Source: a virus
Strand: one strand, 5' to 3'
Length of the DNA stretch: 25,824 nt
IMG/VR virus record: IMGVR_UViG_3300034062_001679
Location: 1 to 25,824 of that record
Below, piece by piece: positions 106-22,193 of this stretch. Every line of letters begins with the position of its first letter. Position 1 is the first letter of the stretch. The notes below the pieces were generated by a model. The model made no database searches. It was not told the DNA's origin and saw only the letters and a program-made list of their open reading frames with translations. The translations under genes and the position numbers were made by a program.

Positions 106-3100
106 TTATCCTCTCAACTTTCTTGCAATCATTCGTGAGCGGTCGCGCTCGTAAAGGTACGTGTCCATTCCTACCTGCACATCTACGCCCATGTTGCCTT
201 GTATTCCGTTCGGCATTGAATCCAGACGCTGCCGAATAGCCGATAGCTCCGAGCGCATAAGCTGCAATTCCGTTACCGGTATCGTGCTAATCTGGTTATC
301 CGCAAGCATCTTCTGCAAAGCAGGGAACGATTCAAGCGATTTGCCACTATGCAAGTGCTCAAGCAGCGCCCTGTTCTTGCGTGTAGTCTCTGCGGTCATC
401 ACGAACTCTTGCCCGTGGACTACGCCCGCTACTTGCTTTGTGCCGCCGTTGCCTGTGTAACCGCCCTCTTCAAAGCCCGATAATGCGGACTGCAATAATG
501 CCTTCAATGCTTGCACGGCTGCCAAGCCCGCAATCTGTCCAAATGGAGGCGGGATAACCGAGCTAAACAAGGCCACAATGGACGGCGTATATAGGTCAAG
601 CAATGCGCTAACAGTCGAGCCGACTACTTTCTTGAGTGCCTCGCCCGCGCTTTCCCCGCCCGCTACAAGAGATGCAAAAGCAGCACCCGCAGATACGGCT
701 ATTTGGTCAAGTGCCGCGCTCTGTACCTCTGCGGATTCTTTTGCTAGTTTCTCATCTTCTTTCTTAAGATTGGCTCGATCCTGTGCGTACTTATCTTCTA
801 TGGCCTTGAGTGCTGCCTCGTAAACTTCCTTGTCTTTGATACCCTGATCTTGCAGCGCCTTGACTTCCGCCGCCTTTAGTTTTTCAAGGTCAATCTCTTG
901 TTTAGCTATCTCTTTTCTACGTTCTAGTGCAGCGTTAACCGTATTAATACCGTCTTGCGCTGCTTGCGCCTGCTGATCTGCAATAGCTTGGAACGCTTGC
1001 GAGAAAGCCGTAGCCGTCGCACTTGCCGTCTGTTCCTGTTGTGCCTGTAAGTTGGCAAGCTGATCCACCGAATCTTGGTACGTCGCCGTACCATCCTGCA
1101 AGTTTTCGATTAACTTCTCTTGCTCTTCATTCAAGGCCGCCGCTTTGTCCGCAGCTTCGCCGTAGATAGTCGCAAAATCTACCGAGCGCAGAGCTTCACC
1201 AATGCCACGCAATGAGTCCGCAAATATCTCTCCCGCCTGCTTTACCTGTTGCTGCCTAATCTGCGCTACAATGTCCGCCGTGCCCTTCGCAATTTCATCT
1301 GCGCTCTGCTGGTATGCAGCGCGAATCTGCAATGCGTAGATATTGGACGTATCGCTTGGCAACGATTGTAGCTCTTGAAAGATGCGCTGCCGTGCCTCCG
1401 CTGCACTTGCCTTGAACGTAGAGGGATCAATCAAGCCGAGCTGCAACTGCTGCGCTAGCTTCTCGATTGCTTCCTTGTACGCTGGAGTCTGTTCAATTAT
1501 AGCGTCAATGCCTGCGCTTAAACTGCCCTCAATAACGGCACGCTGCGCTGATAGCAGCTCATTAGCTACGCCTGCATTGCCCGCCGCTAGCTGTGCTTTT
1601 AATCTCTCCACACGCTGCGCTGCAAACTTGGCCGTAATATCGTCCAGCTTCTTTTGCTGTTCCTCTTCTGCCTTTAACTGCTGCGCTCTGGCCTTCGCTT
1701 CTATCTCTGCAATCTTGCGGCCGTTCTCTTCGCGCAATATCTCAATGCGCTTGTTGATTACCGCCTCTTCTGCCGTACGAAGTTTGCCTGTACTCTTAAG
1801 CTGTTTGCGCTGTTCGTCGATTGCAGCTATTGCGTACTTCTGCTCAATCTCAATACGCTTCTTTGCACGCTCTTCATCGCTTGCTATTGTGTCCGTTGCT
1901 GCCAGTTCCCGCGCTTTTGCCTGCTCTGCGGTCAATCCTGCTAGCTCCTCTTTGGCTTTGCGTAGTGCTTCGGCTGCTGCCTTTGCTTTCTCTGGGTCAA
2001 CTGGAGGCGGGTCTTTTTTTAACTTTTTGTTAGTGTCGCCTAAATCCTTTGATGCTTCATTCAAATCTTCCGTTGCTTTTGTCTGTTCTTTTAATGCACC
2101 GGTAGTTTTCGCGCTGGTATCGTCAATGCCAAGCAAAGCATTTTTAATAGCCGTCAAATCAAACGATGCTATTGCATTGATGAGACGCAGTAAGTATTGA
2201 TATAAATTATCAACAATACCTATTACCGATGTGGCCACGGCCGCAAAAAACTGCAATACTCCAGCCAATCCTTGAACGATACCTATCGCTGCACTCAACA
2301 CAAGGTTAAGCGCAGACATAAGTATTTTGTTTTCTGTAATCGTTTTAACCAACGTAATAAACAGTTTTGCTAGTGCACCAATAACAGGTACTAGCGCTGT
2401 TCCAATTTGAGCATAAAGCTGCGCGATAGTAGGCAGTAGCTGTATTATCACGTCAAAGATCGGCTGTAACGCAGGGAATAACTGACGGAAAGTGTCAGCC
2501 AAAATGTTGATGATCTGCGTAAACGGAACCATTGCAGTATTGACTACTTGCAATATCACAGGAACAAGCTGCTGTATCAATCCTAACAACGGTTCAAGCA
2601 CCGCTGATATAAGAGATAGCAACGGCCCCGACAACGAAGATACAAGCGTGCTGATAGCTCCGCCAATCTGTTGTAGGATAGGAGCGAGCGGCGTTAAGAT
2701 ACCCTGCAATACAGGCAGCAGCGATTCCAACACAGGCAGCAACGTTTGCGCTAATGGTATCAACGCTTCCAGTAACTGCGAGCCTATCTTCTCAAATACT
2801 TCGCCTAGCTGGTTTTGCAGCTTGTTAAGAATACCGCCTACATCGCCCTGCTGATCTGCTACCGTCTTGAATGATTCACCAAGCTGCTCGTTAGCTTTCT
2901 TGAGCTTTTCAGCAGGTGAGATATTCGACTTCAATACCTCTGCAAGCTGCGGATATTTCTTGCTCAAGTTCTCAATAGCCGCCGCGCCTTCGGGATCGTT
3001 GATGCCTCGTGCAAATGCCTTTGCTACTGCTTCGCCCTTAACCGCTCCGTTGGTGAACGTCTCAAGTCCAGCGGCGAGCTTTGTCAAATCCTGTGCGCTC

Positions 3101-3624
3101 TCACCTGTAAAGCCGCCCAATGATGCAACGGATACAGCAAGCTCGCGCGTACGTGCGACCGGTTGCCCTAAATTATTGGCAAGCTCAAGAGATGACTTCG
3201 ACACTTTCTCAATTTCAGCGTCTACGTCTGCTATGCCTTGTGCCTTAAACGCTACCTCTAGCGAATCTTGAAATTCATCCGCTGCGAGTGCGCCTTCTTT
3301 GAGACCGCCTACGATACCAGATAACGCTTGCGAGGCAGCGCCACCAAGAGCACCGCCTGCTAGAGCCCCGAGGCCTCCGAGCTTTTTCCCTAGCCCGCCA
3401 GCTGCAGCGTCCGCGCCTTTGGTGTCTACATCTACCTTTACAGTTTCAGTCCTAGATAAACCGTCAATCTTCTTATCGGCTGCATCAACTTCGTTATCGT
3501 TGACGTCAACCTTAACGCTCGGTTTGGCATTGCCTAGCTTGTTAATCTGTGCAAGCGCATCGGCTAGCGACTTCTTGAGCGTGGTTAAATCTAGGCCAAT
3601 ACTGACGGTAGCTTTTTCTGCCAT
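106..3624 (-). CDS. Tail tape measure protein
   Basis: 1172 residues, the longest gene in the window. It sets tail length and is packed in the tail tube before ejection. Residues 1-110 are charged, then Gly/Ala-rich. Residues about 265-500 are a long hydrophobic Leu/Pro/Ile-rich stretch with several potential membrane helices, typical of tape measures. Residues about 520-1000 are Ala/Glu/Lys/Gln-rich coiled coil. The C-terminal part holds the FEEGGYTGNGG...VVHGQEFV signature common near the end of siphophage tape measures. The start ATG overlaps the stop of the upstream tail-assembly gene (TAATG). Its place after the tail-assembly genes supports the call. The minus-strand codon bias leaves several long empty frames on the plus strand; they are not genes. 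Confidence 0.95.
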   Translation of the reverse strand: MAEKATVSIGLDLTTLKKSLADALAQINKLGNAKPSVKVDVNDNEVDAADKKIDGLSRTETVKVDVDTKGADAAAGGLGKKLGGLGALAGGALGGAASQALSGIVGGLKEGALAADEFQDSLEVAFKAQGIADVDAEIEKVSKSSLELANNLGQPVARTRELAVSVASLGGFTGESAQDLTKLAAGLETFTNGAVKGEAVAKAFARGINDPEGAAAIENLSKKYPQLAEVLKSNISPAEKLKKANEQLGESFKTVADQQGDVGGILNKLQNQLGEVFEKIGSQLLEALIPLAQTLLPVLESLLPVLQGILTPLAPILQQIGGAISTLVSSLSGPLLSLISAVLEPLLGLIQQLVPVILQVVNTAMVPFTQIINILADTFRQLFPALQPIFDVIIQLLPTIAQLYAQIGTALVPVIGALAKLFITLVKTITENKILMSALNLVLSAAIGIVQGLAGVLQFFAAVATSVIGIVDNLYQYLLRLINAIASFDLTAIKNALLGIDDTSAKTTGALKEQTKATEDLNEASKDLGDTNKKLKKDPPPVDPEKAKAAAEALRKAKEELAGLTAEQAKARELAATDTIASDEERAKKRIEIEQKYAIAAIDEQRKQLKSTGKLRTAEEAVINKRIEILREENGRKIAEIEAKARAQQLKAEEEQQKKLDDITAKFAAQRVERLKAQLAAGNAGVANELLSAQRAVIEGSLSAGIDAIIEQTPAYKEAIEKLAQQLQLGLIDPSTFKASAAEARQRIFQELQSLPSDTSNIYALQIRAAYQQSADEIAKGTADIVAQIRQQQVKQAGEIFADSLRGIGEALRSVDFATIYGEAADKAAALNEEQEKLIENLQDGTATYQDSVDQLANLQAQQEQTASATATAFSQAFQAIADQQAQAAQDGINTVNAALERRKEIAKQEIDLEKLKAAEVKALQDQGIKDKEVYEAALKAIEDKYAQDRANLKKEDEKLAKESAEVQSAALDQIAVSAGAAFASLVAGGESAGEALKKVVGSTVSALLDLYTPSIVALFSSVIPPPFGQIAGLAAVQALKALLQSALSGFEEGGYTGNGGTKQVAGVVHGQEFVMTAETTRKNRALLEHLHSGKSLESFPALQKMLADNQISTIPVTELQLMRSELSAIRQRLDSMPNGIQGNMGVDVQVGMDTYLYERDRSRMIARKLRG

Positions 3625-4061
3625 TACTTCATTTCAAGTAGGGTGCTGCAATACTTCTGCACATCCGCGATTGTTACGTGATGCCAGAATCTTTCGGTCT
3701 CAAAATCTTTTGCGTCCTGTTCCGATAGCTTGCTCTTATCTGCCGTCGCTTTGATGCAGTCAATGCCGAGCATTAGCGCGCTCATTGTGTGCGGTAGCTC
3801 CTGCATTTGGCGATGCAATGCGGCTGCTTTTATCATGTTGCTCTTTGCCCATTCGGTCAAGTCAAGCTCTGTAAAAGTTCCGCCGTTTAGTATTGCTTTA
3901 TCCACAAGTACGGCAAACTCTGCATCTTCTGCATACATCTTCGATACGCTTGCCATGATGCGATCTTTGCTATGCTCTTCAATGTATGCGCTGATCTTGC
4001 CTTGCCATTCTTGCAGGAGCTTCGCGTTCGCTACTGATAGCGGGATAGGTTCAAAATTCAT
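3624..4061 (-). CDS. Tail assembly chaperone-like protein, paralogue B
   Basis: 145 residues lying directly before the tape-measure gene, where siphophages keep tail-assembly chaperones. It is visibly related to the protein at 4415..5026. Both have an N-terminal proline-containing segment followed by a W-containing helix, and near the end they share GIDCI(K/R)AT, (D/Y)SKLSE and FW..VT..(D/E)V. It lacks the charged insertion of about 45 residues present in the longer copy. The ribosome site AAGGACACACA precedes the ATG and is nearly identical to the site before 5026, which fits duplication of the gene with its leader. The call rests on position and paralogy rather than on a recognised domain. 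Confidence 0.7.
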   Translation of the reverse strand: MNFEPIPLSVANAKLLQEWQGKISAYIEEHSKDRIMASVSKMYAEDAEFAVLVDKAILNGGTFTELDLTEWAKSNMIKAAALHRQMQELPHTMSALMLGIDCIKATADKSKLSEQDAKDFETERFWHHVTIADVQKYCSTLLEMK

Positions 4062-19258: not shown

Positions 19259-19798
19259 TTAAGCGGTTCTAACGCGCTCTCTATTCCTGTTGATCCAATC
19301 GACATCTAGCTTGAATCCCCATTTAGGTTCTTTTTGCGTGATAATGATAAGTGCCCATTCGTCAAGTTCCTGTTGAGTCAGGTATTTTTTCTCTGGCTTT
19401 ACTTCTTCCCTCGGTTCGTATCTGTTACCATCTACGCGATCATTGGTCTTGCGTAATGTTTGCTCGTATTGCTCTGGCGTTGGATAGAAGTCCGCTAACT
19501 CCAGCGTTGGGTCAACTCCCTTAAACTTCCAGTCACCCTTCATTATCCAGTCTTGCGCTCGCTGCGCTTGGTCGGGATGATAGCCGTCTGCTAGAAGCTG
19601 TTGAGTAAAGTATTCAAGGCGCATATCGTCAATCTTGATTTTGCGACCCATCGCCAAGTGCAAAACCATTTCCCTGACCCAAACCGCCAATGCTCGATTC
19701 GATGCCTCGCTTTCGGAGCCATTCATTGCTGTCTGCAAAGAGTTTTTGATAATCGATCTCCACTTCGCGATCGCCGAGTGTTCGTTTTTGTGTGCCAT
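19259..19798 (-). CDS. Replication accessory protein, possible helicase loader-like
   Basis: 179 residues, starting 170 bases inside the end of the initiator gene in another frame. KIKIDDMRLEYFTQQLL, then HPDQAQRAQDWIMKGDWKF, then ADFYPTPEQY resembles the N-terminal helical domain of phage helicase loaders, in which a W..fP(P/T) motif follows paired helices; this is a tentative match. The start at 19798 has AGGA seven bases upstream. Later ATGs at 19669, 19651 and 19624 have weaker ribosome sites, so the longer form is preferred. Position between the initiator and the DnaA-like gene supports a replication role. Confidence 0.65.
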   Translation of the reverse strand: MAHKNEHSAIAKWRSIIKNSLQTAMNGSESEASNRALAVWVREMVLHLAMGRKIKIDDMRLEYFTQQLLADGYHPDQAQRAQDWIMKGDWKFKGVDPTLELADFYPTPEQYEQTLRKTNDRVDGNRYEPREEVKPEKKYLTQQELDEWALIIITQKEPKWGFKLDVDWINRNRERVRTA

Positions 19799-20567
19799 TG
19801 CTGTTCCTAAAGTTGTTTTTGTTCCTGTTCCAATTCCTTGCTGTTGCCTTCCAATCCTTCATAGCGTTCTTGCCCACTTTCCAGCCGTTGGCTGTGTAAT
19901 GGTCGAAGAATTTGTTTGCTTCCTCCTGCGTGCTGCCTAGCTCAATGAAGTAGTCAAGGATTTCTTGACAACTTGGGCGCGTGAATGCGCGCGAGCGCAT
20001 ACTCACACTATCTATTTGTTCTTCTATTCTTTCCTTCTTCCCTTCTTTACTTCTTATTATAGCGCCCTTATCGCGCCCAGATTGCGCCCTAATCGTGCCC
20101 GAATCGCGCCCTGTTTCGTTCTCATGTCCTTGTAACTTGTTATAGTTTATAATAGTTAGGTGTGCCGTTTTCGTGCCCTGTTTTGACTCTATCATGCCGT
20201 CTTTTTTTGCGTGCATTATAAAGTTACGTACCATCTTTTCAGTAGTATAACTACGTAACGCAATAGTCTTGTAAGACATAACAAGTTCACCACGCTGCAC
20301 TTCTACAATTATGCCATCACGTACCCTTTTACGGGTTTCCCATTGGGCATTAAACAACATGACTAACCAGATGTTAGTATAGTTAGGATTCTCAAACAGC
20401 CAATGGTTCTGTAGCTTACGATGGACTTTAATCCAAGATTCATCCATAGTATAAATAGGAAACCCAGATGCTAACTGATTTTCCTCGGTCATGAATGAAC
20501 CGCCCGCACCGTCTCCGGTGAAGGAATCTTCTAGCATCTGGGTCGTATTGTCTATGTTGTTGTTCAT
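19629..20567 (-). CDS. Phage replication initiator-like protein (winged helix)
   Basis: 312 residues. Residues about 42-145 are a winged-helix domain of the phage replisome-organiser type: WIKVHRKLQNHWLFENPN, then GELVMSYKTIALRSYTTEKMVRNFI, then LTIINYNKLQG. Residues about 198-250 (CQEILDYFIELGSTQEEANKF, NGWKVGKNAMKDWKATARNW) match the C-terminal part common in these proteins. The linker between them is encoded by five 11-bp iterons, so this gene probably carries the origin it acts on. The last 57 codons are shared, in another frame, with the next gene. The ribosome site is weak (CCTAAAG). Confidence 0.8.
   Translation of the reverse strand: MNNNIDNTTQMLEDSFTGDGAGGSFMTEENQLASGFPIYTMDESWIKVHRKLQNHWLFENPNYTNIWLVMLFNAQWETRKRVRDGIIVEVQRGELVMSYKTIALRSYTTEKMVRNFIMHAKKDGMIESKQGTKTAHLTIINYNKLQGHENETGRDSGTIRAQSGRDKGAIIRSKEGKKERIEEQIDSVSMRSRAFTRPSCQEILDYFIELGSTQEEANKFFDHYTANGWKVGKNAMKDWKATARNWNRNKNNFRNSNGTQKRTLGDREVEIDYQKLFADSNEWLRKRGIESSIGGLGQGNGFALGDGSQNQD
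20020..20060. other. AT-rich, strand-skewed tract beside the iterons
   Basis: From about 20029 to 20057 the plus strand is almost pure pyrimidine (T and C) and the minus strand almost pure purine, inside the initiator gene and directly against the iterons. Easily melted, purine-skewed DNA next to iterons is the known layout of the lambda-type origin. A second AT-rich segment lies on the other side at about 20127..20160. Low-complexity linker coding (Lys/Glu/Arg) could also produce the skew, so this is supportive rather than decisive. Confidence 0.45.
20061..20111. repeat. Five 11-bp iterons, probable replication origin
   Basis: GCGCCC (one copy GTGCCC) starts at 20062, 20073, 20084, 20095 and 20106, exactly 11 bases apart. 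On the minus strand the units read GGGCGCGATTC, GGGCACGATTA, GGGCGCAATCT, GGGCGCGATAA and GGGCGCTATAA. Two weaker words (GTGCCG at 20162, GTGCCC at 20173) are again 11 bases apart. Because 11 is not a multiple of three, the repeat cannot be explained by a simple protein repeat. The location inside the initiator gene is like that of the iterons in lambda O. Confidence 0.75.
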
Positions 20568-20639: not shown

Positions 20640-21227
20640 TCAGAGCTTACGCAGCCACACTTGCCAGTTCTTTGCTAGGAGCTCGTATTCTCCATCGTAT
20701 ACTTCTAGCAATGTGTTAATCCCCTGCTTTGGATTGTACTTTGGCCCCTTGCCTGCATCCCAACCGTAGTCATCAAAAGCTAGTATGCCGCCCTGCTTGA
20801 GATACTTCCAGCCCTTTGCGCCGTCTTTCCATACCTGATCTGCGGTGTGGTCGCCATCGATGTAGATAAAGTCGAACTGATTGCGATCTAGCATGTTCGC
20901 GTAGCTATCGAAGAACCTATCTGACGTCATACGGAAGTATCGACACTTCATGTATGCCCGCAGTCCGATCCTGTCTAGATATGTGTCAAAAACATCTACC
21001 CAGTCGAACAGCTCGTGCTCTGCTTCGTCGCTGCCCTGCCACGTGTCCACGTCGTACAGCATTACTTTGTTACCTGTTAGCACATACCGTAGCAGCCAAT
21101 CGCTTGCGTGCCCTACAAATGCGCCAATCTGCAATGCTTGGTAGTTATCTTGCCCTGCTTCTGGCAGCAGGAATTCTGTAAAATTTGCTCGTGCTACCGA
21201 GTCAAACCAGTTCGGGTATTCAGTCAT
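20640..21227 (-). CDS. Class I SAM-dependent methyltransferase
   Basis: 195 residues. ALQIGAFVGHASDWL (about residues 31-45) is the SAM-binding glycine motif, VMLYDVDTW the acidic second strand, FDFIYIDGDHTADQVWKD (about residues 118-135) the Methyltransf_24-type motif, and LKQGGILAFDDYGW the post-motif strand. These enzymes mostly methylate sugars, small molecules or proteins, not DNA bases. The substrate is unknown. The strong ribosome site AGGAGGGT precedes an ATG that overlaps the upstream micro-protein stop by eight bases. Its place next to a DNA methyltransferase suggests a modification role, but that is inference. Confidence 0.85.
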   Translation of the reverse strand: MTEYPNWFDSVARANFTEFLLPEAGQDNYQALQIGAFVGHASDWLLRYVLTGNKVMLYDVDTWQGSDEAEHELFDWVDVFDTYLDRIGLRAYMKCRYFRMTSDRFFDSYANMLDRNQFDFIYIDGDHTADQVWKDGAKGWKYLKQGGILAFDDYGWDAGKGPKYNPKQGINTLLEVYDGEYELLAKNWQVWLRKL

Positions 21228-21318
21228 CTACCCTCCTATTATGTACGTATATCTCAAGTGCGATATACATCACTAGCAGCACCAAGCTGATCGCTAGCCC
21301 CCTGTCGATTGCGTCCAT
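21220..21318 (-). CDS. 32-residue single-pass membrane protein
   Basis: A short gene with the ribosome site GGAGGACAC. It begins MDAIDRGLAISLVLLVM and ends in a charged tail (YVHNRRVDD). One membrane helix of about 19 residues fits the positive-inside rule with its C-terminus inside. Its start overlaps the end of the DNA methyltransferase gene by 25 bases and its stop overlaps the next start by eight. The good ribosome site, complete membrane helix and nested overlaps support a real gene. Function is unknown. Confidence 0.6.
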   Translation of the reverse strand: MDAIDRGLAISLVLLVMYIALEIYVHNRRVDD

Positions 21319-22193
21319 GTGTCCTCCATCTCTTGTATTGTTTTGAAAATCTGCAATGCTACCTGTGGCACTATTGCGTTGCCGTAGCCCTTTATGCTTT
21401 CTCTTCGCCACTTTGGAATGGTAATACCGTCCAGTTCGGTGGGAATCCCATCATCTCCGCCACAAATAGGGGGTTGAGTTGGGAAGTTTTGCCAGTCGGC
21501 TTGTAAATCGAAGCTATCACATCGGTCAGATTTGCCTTGCCACGGTCGATGCTCGCATTGCCACGAGCTTCTTGGCACTTGGGTGTCGGAAGCAATCCGC
21601 TCTTGGCTAGTTGTGGCAGAGCTGCACCGTACCTGACTCCCTTGCTGTTGACGTTGAGCCCGTTCTCGTCCAGCTTCCTGTTGCCCCTCTCCAAATCCGA
21701 GGCTTTCGGAGTAGGCAACAATCCATATTCGATCTCTTCTGTGGGGAGCACCGACGGCGCAAGCTGGAATAATAAACGGCTGTACGGCGTAACCTTCAGC
21801 TTCCAATTCAGCACACACCTCTTCGAGTACCACGCCCCCATTCCAAGTAGTAAGCCCGAAAACATTTTCGCCCACGACGTAGGTAGGTCTGATTTCTCGA
21901 ATAGCTCGTAACATGTGGGGCCAGAGGTGACGATCATCGTCTTTGCCTTTGCGCTTGCCCGCTGCGCTGTACGGCTGACAAGGGAATCCGCCTGTGAGAA
22001 CATCAATAGCTCCTTTGTGAACATTGAAATCTGTATTTGTGATGTCAGCATAGCTTATCGCCTCTGGCCAGTAATGATGTAATATCTTCCGTGGAAACTC
22101 TGCCCATTCACAATGAAAGATATTATCCCATCGCATCCATTCGGCGGCAAGATCGAAGCCGCCAATCCCCGAAAAAAGTGAGCCATGACGCAC
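21294..22193 (-). CDS. C5-cytosine DNA methyltransferase
   Basis: 299 residues. Motif I is SLFSGIGGFDLA (residues 5-16), motif IV GGFPCQPYS (68-76, catalytic Cys72), motif VI GENV (108-111), motif VIII HRRDRIWIV (151-159) and motif X YGNAIVPQVA (270-279). Residues about 160-235, the target-recognition part, are short, polar and Gln/Arg/Ser-rich. It methylates cytosine at C5, probably to shield phage DNA from host restriction; the target site cannot be read off. Residues about 64-267 are also read in another frame by the nested gene. The ATG overlaps the stop of the VRR-NUC gene. Confidence 0.95.
   Translation of the reverse strand: MRHGSLFSGIGGFDLAAEWMRWDNIFHCEWAEFPRKILHHYWPEAISYADITNTDFNVHKGAIDVLTGGFPCQPYSAAGKRKGKDDDRHLWPHMLRAIREIRPTYVVGENVFGLTTWNGGVVLEEVCAELEAEGYAVQPFIIPACAVGAPHRRDRIWIVAYSESLGFGEGQQEAGRERAQRQQQGSQVRCSSATTSQERIASDTQVPRSSWQCEHRPWQGKSDRCDSFDLQADWQNFPTQPPICGGDDGIPTELDGITIPKWRRESIKGYGNAIVPQVALQIFKTIQEMEDTWTQSTGG
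21392..22003 (-). CDS. Out-of-frame gene nested in the DNA methyltransferase gene
   Basis: A 203-residue frame lying completely within the methyltransferase gene, +1 to it on the same strand. The ATG at 22003 has the ribosome site AAAGGAG six bases upstream; a longer form from 22051 lacks one. Features are TSGPTCYELFEKSDLPTSW, SRLLFQLAPSVLP, two LLPTPK motifs (residues 95-100 and 137-142) and a C-terminus with LNPLFVAEMMGFPPNWT (176-192) and LPFQSGEE. I recall LPTP/MMGFPxxWT proteins as a recurrent, unnamed phage family next to C5 methyltransferases. It could aid or modulate the methyltransferase. The chance that it is a conserved shadow frame is not excluded. Confidence 0.65.
   Translation of the reverse strand: MFSQADSLVSRTAQRASAKAKTMIVTSGPTCYELFEKSDLPTSWAKMFSGLLLGMGAWYSKRCVLNWKLKVTPYSRLLFQLAPSVLPTEEIEYGLLPTPKASDLERGNRKLDENGLNVNSKGVRYGAALPQLAKSGLLPTPKCQEARGNASIDRGKANLTDVIASIYKPTGKTSQLNPLFVAEMMGFPPNWTVLPFQSGEEKA

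Follow-up and report, generated by a model that had tools for sequence, protein, structure and literature searches.

A nested reading frame that most likely supplies the motif IX missing from a phage C5-cytosine DNA methyltransferase

Natural C5 methyltransferases made of two chains are exemplified by the alpha/beta enzyme M.EcoHK31I (YGGCCR), which belongs to a bacterial restriction-modification system, and by M.AquI. In M.EcoHK31I, the gene of the small subunit lies inside that of the large one, in another frame. According to PMC3404938 (citing Lee, Kam and Shaw 1995), the large subunit of M.EcoHK31I holds motifs I-VIII and X and its small subunit motif IX only, and a predicted recognition domain is placed in the large subunit; the small subunit of M.AquI holds motifs IX and X (PMC3404938). 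M.HhaI and other one-chain enzymes carry motif IX in frame in a single polypeptide. The locus described here, from virus record IMGVR_UViG_3300034062_001679 (positions 1-25,824, the whole stretch analysed, hereafter the window, in whose numbering all of its coordinates are given), shares with M.EcoHK31I both the division of the motifs between two polypeptides and the position of the small-subunit gene, nested in another frame of the large one. The difference is that the enzyme of the window is encoded in a phage genome without a recognised restriction partner. Judged by motif division and gene layout, and not by sequence, the system is best classed with M.EcoHK31I, as one more example of a kind that is known but barely catalogued. 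Unlike M.AquI, it has motif X in the large chain, and M.AquI is more like the forms found in the actinophages Alma and Geodirt (see below).

The window also holds portal, capsid and terminase genes. The large chain, alpha (21294-22193, minus strand, 299 aa), is a C5 cytosine DNA methyltransferase of family PF00145 (E 6.7e-42), which also matches phrog_363 and TIGR00675, although the latter match reaches only position 197 of the 329 of the profile. Its motif survey reveals motifs I-VIII and X and no motif IX. The catalytic domain comprises motif IV, PCQ, with the catalytic cysteine (21975-21983, minus; invariant columns P71, C72 and Q73), motif VI, ENV (21861-21869, minus; invariant E109, N110 and V111), and motif VIII, HRRDR (21729-21743, minus; invariant H151, R153 and R155), all of them within the region shared with the nested gene. 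Motif X, GNAIVP (21366-21383, minus), lies outside the overlap, directly downstream of the stop codon of the nested gene. A gene for a class I AdoMet methyltransferase (Methyltransf_24; 20640-21227, minus) sits directly downstream of the nested pair. Two further long frames on the same strand, 19259-19798 and 19629-20567 (minus), both without a Pfam match, overlap each other by 170 bases, which could represent a second out-of-frame overlap or a mis-called start. When a restriction partner was looked for, the sole adjoining candidate was a VRR-NUC gene, which is not a recognised partner type.

The nested gene, beta (21392-22003, minus), occupies the +1 frame of alpha and encodes 203 aa. The preliminary description of this DNA had placed a frame of this length wholly inside the methyltransferase gene, and both its coordinates and its start hold: the ATG, with its A at 22003, follows a ribosome site, AAAGGAG, six bases upstream (22010-22016, minus), which overlaps the alpha codons for KGAID. 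This is the best-placed start, although the open frame spans 22051-21392 and contains, at 22051, another ATG farther upstream, whose ribosome site is weaker and which could also serve. The repeated LLPTP motif occurs twice in the protein, as had been read from the sequence (21707-21721, with an invariant T114, and 21581-21595, both minus), and the same bases indeed encode both FPTQPPICGGDDGIP of the enzyme and LNPLFVAEMMGFPPNW of the nested protein. The latter is a motif IX-like segment (21431-21478, minus), at which alpha reads TQPPICGGDDG. Beta matches phrog_1008 (E 2.6e-25), the catalogued family of the nested protein, while searches of Pfam, NCBIfam and PDB sequences with beta alone gave no match. 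The label of that family, 'DNA methyltransferase', implies a whole enzyme, whereas the nested protein holds neither AdoMet nor catalytic motifs.

Homologues selected by means of the nested frame are conditioned on that frame, and a second sample was therefore drawn by the methyltransferase frame only. It comprises 95 distinct genes, which are relatives of the enzyme of the window (about 42-78% identical) and not a survey of all C5 methyltransferases. Stops were counted from PCQ to just before motif X, with the expectation taken from synonymous codon shuffling. Frequent stops in homologues would have spoken against a gene, but the +1 frame contains 1 stop in the whole sample versus 474 expected, and is wholly open in 94 of the 95 genes versus 1.5 expected. 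The +2 frame, used as a control, shows no depletion (1434 stops versus 1462 expected), and the same treatment of canonical C5 methyltransferases with an in-frame motif IX yielded 174 stops versus 177 expected and an open frame in none of 14; the +1 frame of the canonical enzymes examined is full of stops.

Substitution patterns lead to the same frame. Among 84 independent pairs, third-position differences amount to 0.34-0.39 per site where the frames do not overlap but only to 0.22-0.26 where they do, and in the C-terminal overlap it is the first position, the wobble position of the nested frame, that is the most variable (0.31). When isolated substitutions are classed in both frames, and the nested value is taken among changes that are nonsynonymous in alpha, the nested dN/dS is 1.02 in the flanks (95% interval 0.69-1.5), 0.39 in the overlap with the catalytic core (0.30-0.50), and 0.09 in the C-terminal overlap (0.08-0.11). 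For alpha, dN/dS is 0.06 over the core and 0.20-0.31 over the C-terminal part. In the C-terminal half of the overlap, both frames are therefore under selection, and the nested one has the larger share in shaping the sequence. The nested frame is a real, selected protein-coding gene, as had been proposed, and the idea that it constrains the recognition region of the enzyme is also sustained by this codon-level comparison of the two frames, since purifying selection there is stronger on the nested frame than on the enzyme. The composition of alpha agrees with this stronger constraint and with the preliminary description of a Gln/Arg/Ser-rich recognition region: the stretch that separates motif VIII from motif X, with a median length of 130 residues (range 64-309), is polar, with 53% of QRSGNED residues versus 41% in the core, and 29% of hydrophobic residues versus 42%. 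Strong ribosome sites, on the other hand, do not constitute a family-wide rule: an ATG with a ribosome site of at least four bases is enriched 3.7-fold (21% of the homologues versus 5.5% after synonymous shuffling), yet only 21% have one.

The distribution of motifs between the two proteins points to their relationship. A motif IX-like sequence was found in 264 of 269 beta proteins, in 10 of 10 canonical enzymes and in none of 269 alpha proteins (C-terminal part); since this pattern was drawn up with knowledge of the beta motif, the count that carries information is the zero for alpha. Conversely, a motif X-like pattern is present in 264 of 269 alpha and in 2 of 269 beta proteins, and alpha motifs I-VIII keep their invariant residues in the alignment. 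The signature of beta, MMGFPxxW, occupies the position of motif IX in C5 methyltransferases. In an hhalign comparison, beta aligns with the C-termini of the actinophage enzymes (94%, E 8.8e-8), whose motif X in turn aligns with that of canonical enzymes. The direct comparison of beta with canonical enzymes is weak (p 0.019), yet falls in the exact register of motif IX, and a profile built from fused, alpha and beta sequences puts the MMGFP segment on residues 273-289 of M.HhaI, KLHPRECARVMGYPDSY, which are motif IX. Thus alpha corresponds to the one-chain enzymes in motifs I-VIII and X, and beta most likely supplies the motif IX that alpha lacks.

Structural comparisons are less informative for beta alone, which found no match among solved C5 methyltransferases in either sequence or Foldseek searches. 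Its AlphaFold model has low confidence (pLDDT 60.6), and a cyanase-like Foldseek match to this model was disregarded as noise (E above 0.1). The model of a fused actinophage enzyme matches M.HhaI and other C5 methyltransferases; its LPTP region is unmodelled (pLDDT about 30), so the packing of beta is not shown by the model. No counterpart outside the overlap family was found for the conserved N-terminal domain of beta, which overlaps alpha motifs IV-VIII. Because the C-terminal part corresponds to a region of canonical methyltransferases, this part at least could derive from a displaced fragment of the ancestral enzyme and need not be of new origin, and the birth of the whole nested protein by overprinting, suggested in the preliminary description, is not borne out.

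Nested pairs occur in Bacteroidota, Bacillota, Pseudomonadota, cyanophage and other genomes, and very distant enzymes with a nested frame are found in the E. coli phages K1G and K1H, Salmonella SI7, and phages of Vibrio, Rhizobium, Acinetobacter and Stenotrophomonas. MMGFP proteins had been described as neighbours of C5 methyltransferases; they are mostly embedded in them, with matches to the nested family overlapping a methyltransferase in the +1 frame at 236 of 237 loci. Both frames are annotated in some records, such as gp54/gp55 of Tadhana and gp32/gp33 of K1H. In the Porphyromonas phage phage018a (locus L002, 2191-3222), only the nested beta is annotated, as hypothetical, and the overlapping methyltransferase frame is not. 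A description of nested methyltransferase genes across phages was not found in the open literature, which was the literature covered, and the breadth of this architecture is what may be new.

A free-standing form, which had been proposed as something to look for, was found in Porphyromonas somerae (L184). Here, beta is a separate frame of 243 aa just downstream of alpha, overlapping its end by a few bases only, and the frame embedded in alpha has decayed (9 stops versus 11.6 expected without constraint). Relatives of the nested family sought near this copy were only overlapping ones. The same contig holds a 112-aa frame (L376, 1429-1767), a second beta C-terminus over a C-terminal fragment of a methyltransferase, which is perhaps a broken older copy.

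Fused forms were also found. In L381 and L427, a beta-like tail follows motif X in the same chain as alpha, and these tails match the nested beta of Pseudomonas phage PS-1 and Klebsiella phage BUCT711 with E values from 2e-28 to 3e-21; in L427, the +1 frame has been released from constraint (7 stops versus 7.0 expected). McrB-like AAA features (GISGTGKSR and DEMNLAPVEQYF) occur in the gene after each fusion (L381, 1329-2333 then 2210-3319; L427, 1411-2478 then 2385-3944), and gene content of this sort suggests a bacterial restriction or defence locus. Actinophages present a third arrangement. In Alma and Geodirt, the LPTP repeats and an MMxxP segment are located in the +1 frame that also holds motif X, while in Seagreen and L390-L395 these three elements are fused in frame as the C-terminal half of the enzyme. 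Where mycobacteriophages are annotated with a pair of successive 'DNA methylase' genes, these appear to be the two parts of a single split C5 methyltransferase, as in Mycobacterium phage Alma (L386, 1469-2489), in which motifs I-VIII are read in one frame and the +1 frame supplies LPTP, MMxxP and motif X. The existence of separate, fused and split forms indicates that beta is a protein in its own right, which has been joined to alpha in several ways.

Taken as a whole, the locus very probably encodes a two-subunit C5-cytosine DNA methyltransferase in two nested reading frames. Alpha holds the AdoMet site, the catalytic core (motifs I-VIII) and motif X. Beta would have its own start within the alpha gene, in the +1 frame, and would be translated by internal initiation on one shared mRNA, where the adjacent starts would keep both products in balance. 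The two chains would then assemble after translation, beta completing the small domain with its motif IX-like segment. The LPTP-repeat region of beta and the variable segment of alpha, encoded by the same bases, may both contribute to target recognition. Beta would be required for methylation, and is probably an essential subunit.

Other explanations of the second frame have to be weighed against this two-subunit enzyme. The probability that the +1 frame stays open passively, as a side effect of codon bias and of the conserved motifs of the enzyme, is practically nil. Some resemblance to the nested profile does arise passively, since synonymous recodings still reach about 51 bits, but the real genes score 176 bits and are the best in 261 of 261 comparisons; the single stop in place of hundreds, the low nested dN/dS, the free-standing and fused copies, and the control enzymes with no stop depletion refute this explanation. 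It is also unlikely that ribosomes reach the second frame by frameshifting from alpha, which would yield a hybrid of alpha (motifs I-VIII) and beta (LPTP and motif IX) instead of an independently initiated protein. In its favour, the two halves are split between +1 frames in some Gordonia and mycobacterial phages and joined in a single frame in others; however, a strong ribosome site and ATG precede the nested gene in the window, a late shift would not produce the conserved N-terminal domain of beta over motifs IV-VIII, and P. somerae encodes beta as a separate gene.

Of the roles considered in the preliminary description (partner, inhibitor or specificity factor), that of partner is favoured, by the motif IX position of beta, the lack of this motif in all 269 alpha proteins, and the natural fusions. 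The view that beta regulates or inhibits the methyltransferase, or acts in counter-defence, and is not a subunit would fit an N-terminal domain without known homologue and a structure that is not predicted, but it is highly improbable, as it would explain neither why beta carries the motif missing from alpha in every case nor why both exist as one chain. A broader proposal on the two-subunit enzyme, to which we give slightly less than even credence, is that phage C5 methyltransferases have long, and as a general rule, had their motif IX subunit encoded in a nested frame. The recognition regions of the two subunits would be written in the same DNA, where any change, or any repeat gained, would alter both chains at once, and lineages would have repeatedly escaped by moving beta downstream or by fusing it to alpha.

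Few long nested genes on the same strand are known in which both products can be given a role in one enzyme. In this case, the catalytic core is encoded in one frame, while the other most likely provides the motif that it lacks. Because separated and fused versions also exist in nature, what overlapping genes cost and what they gain can be tested directly. Many C5 methyltransferases of phages and prophages are annotated as a single protein, or as a pair of 'DNA methyltransferases' with no stated relation, and cloning them on that basis would leave out a probably essential subunit.
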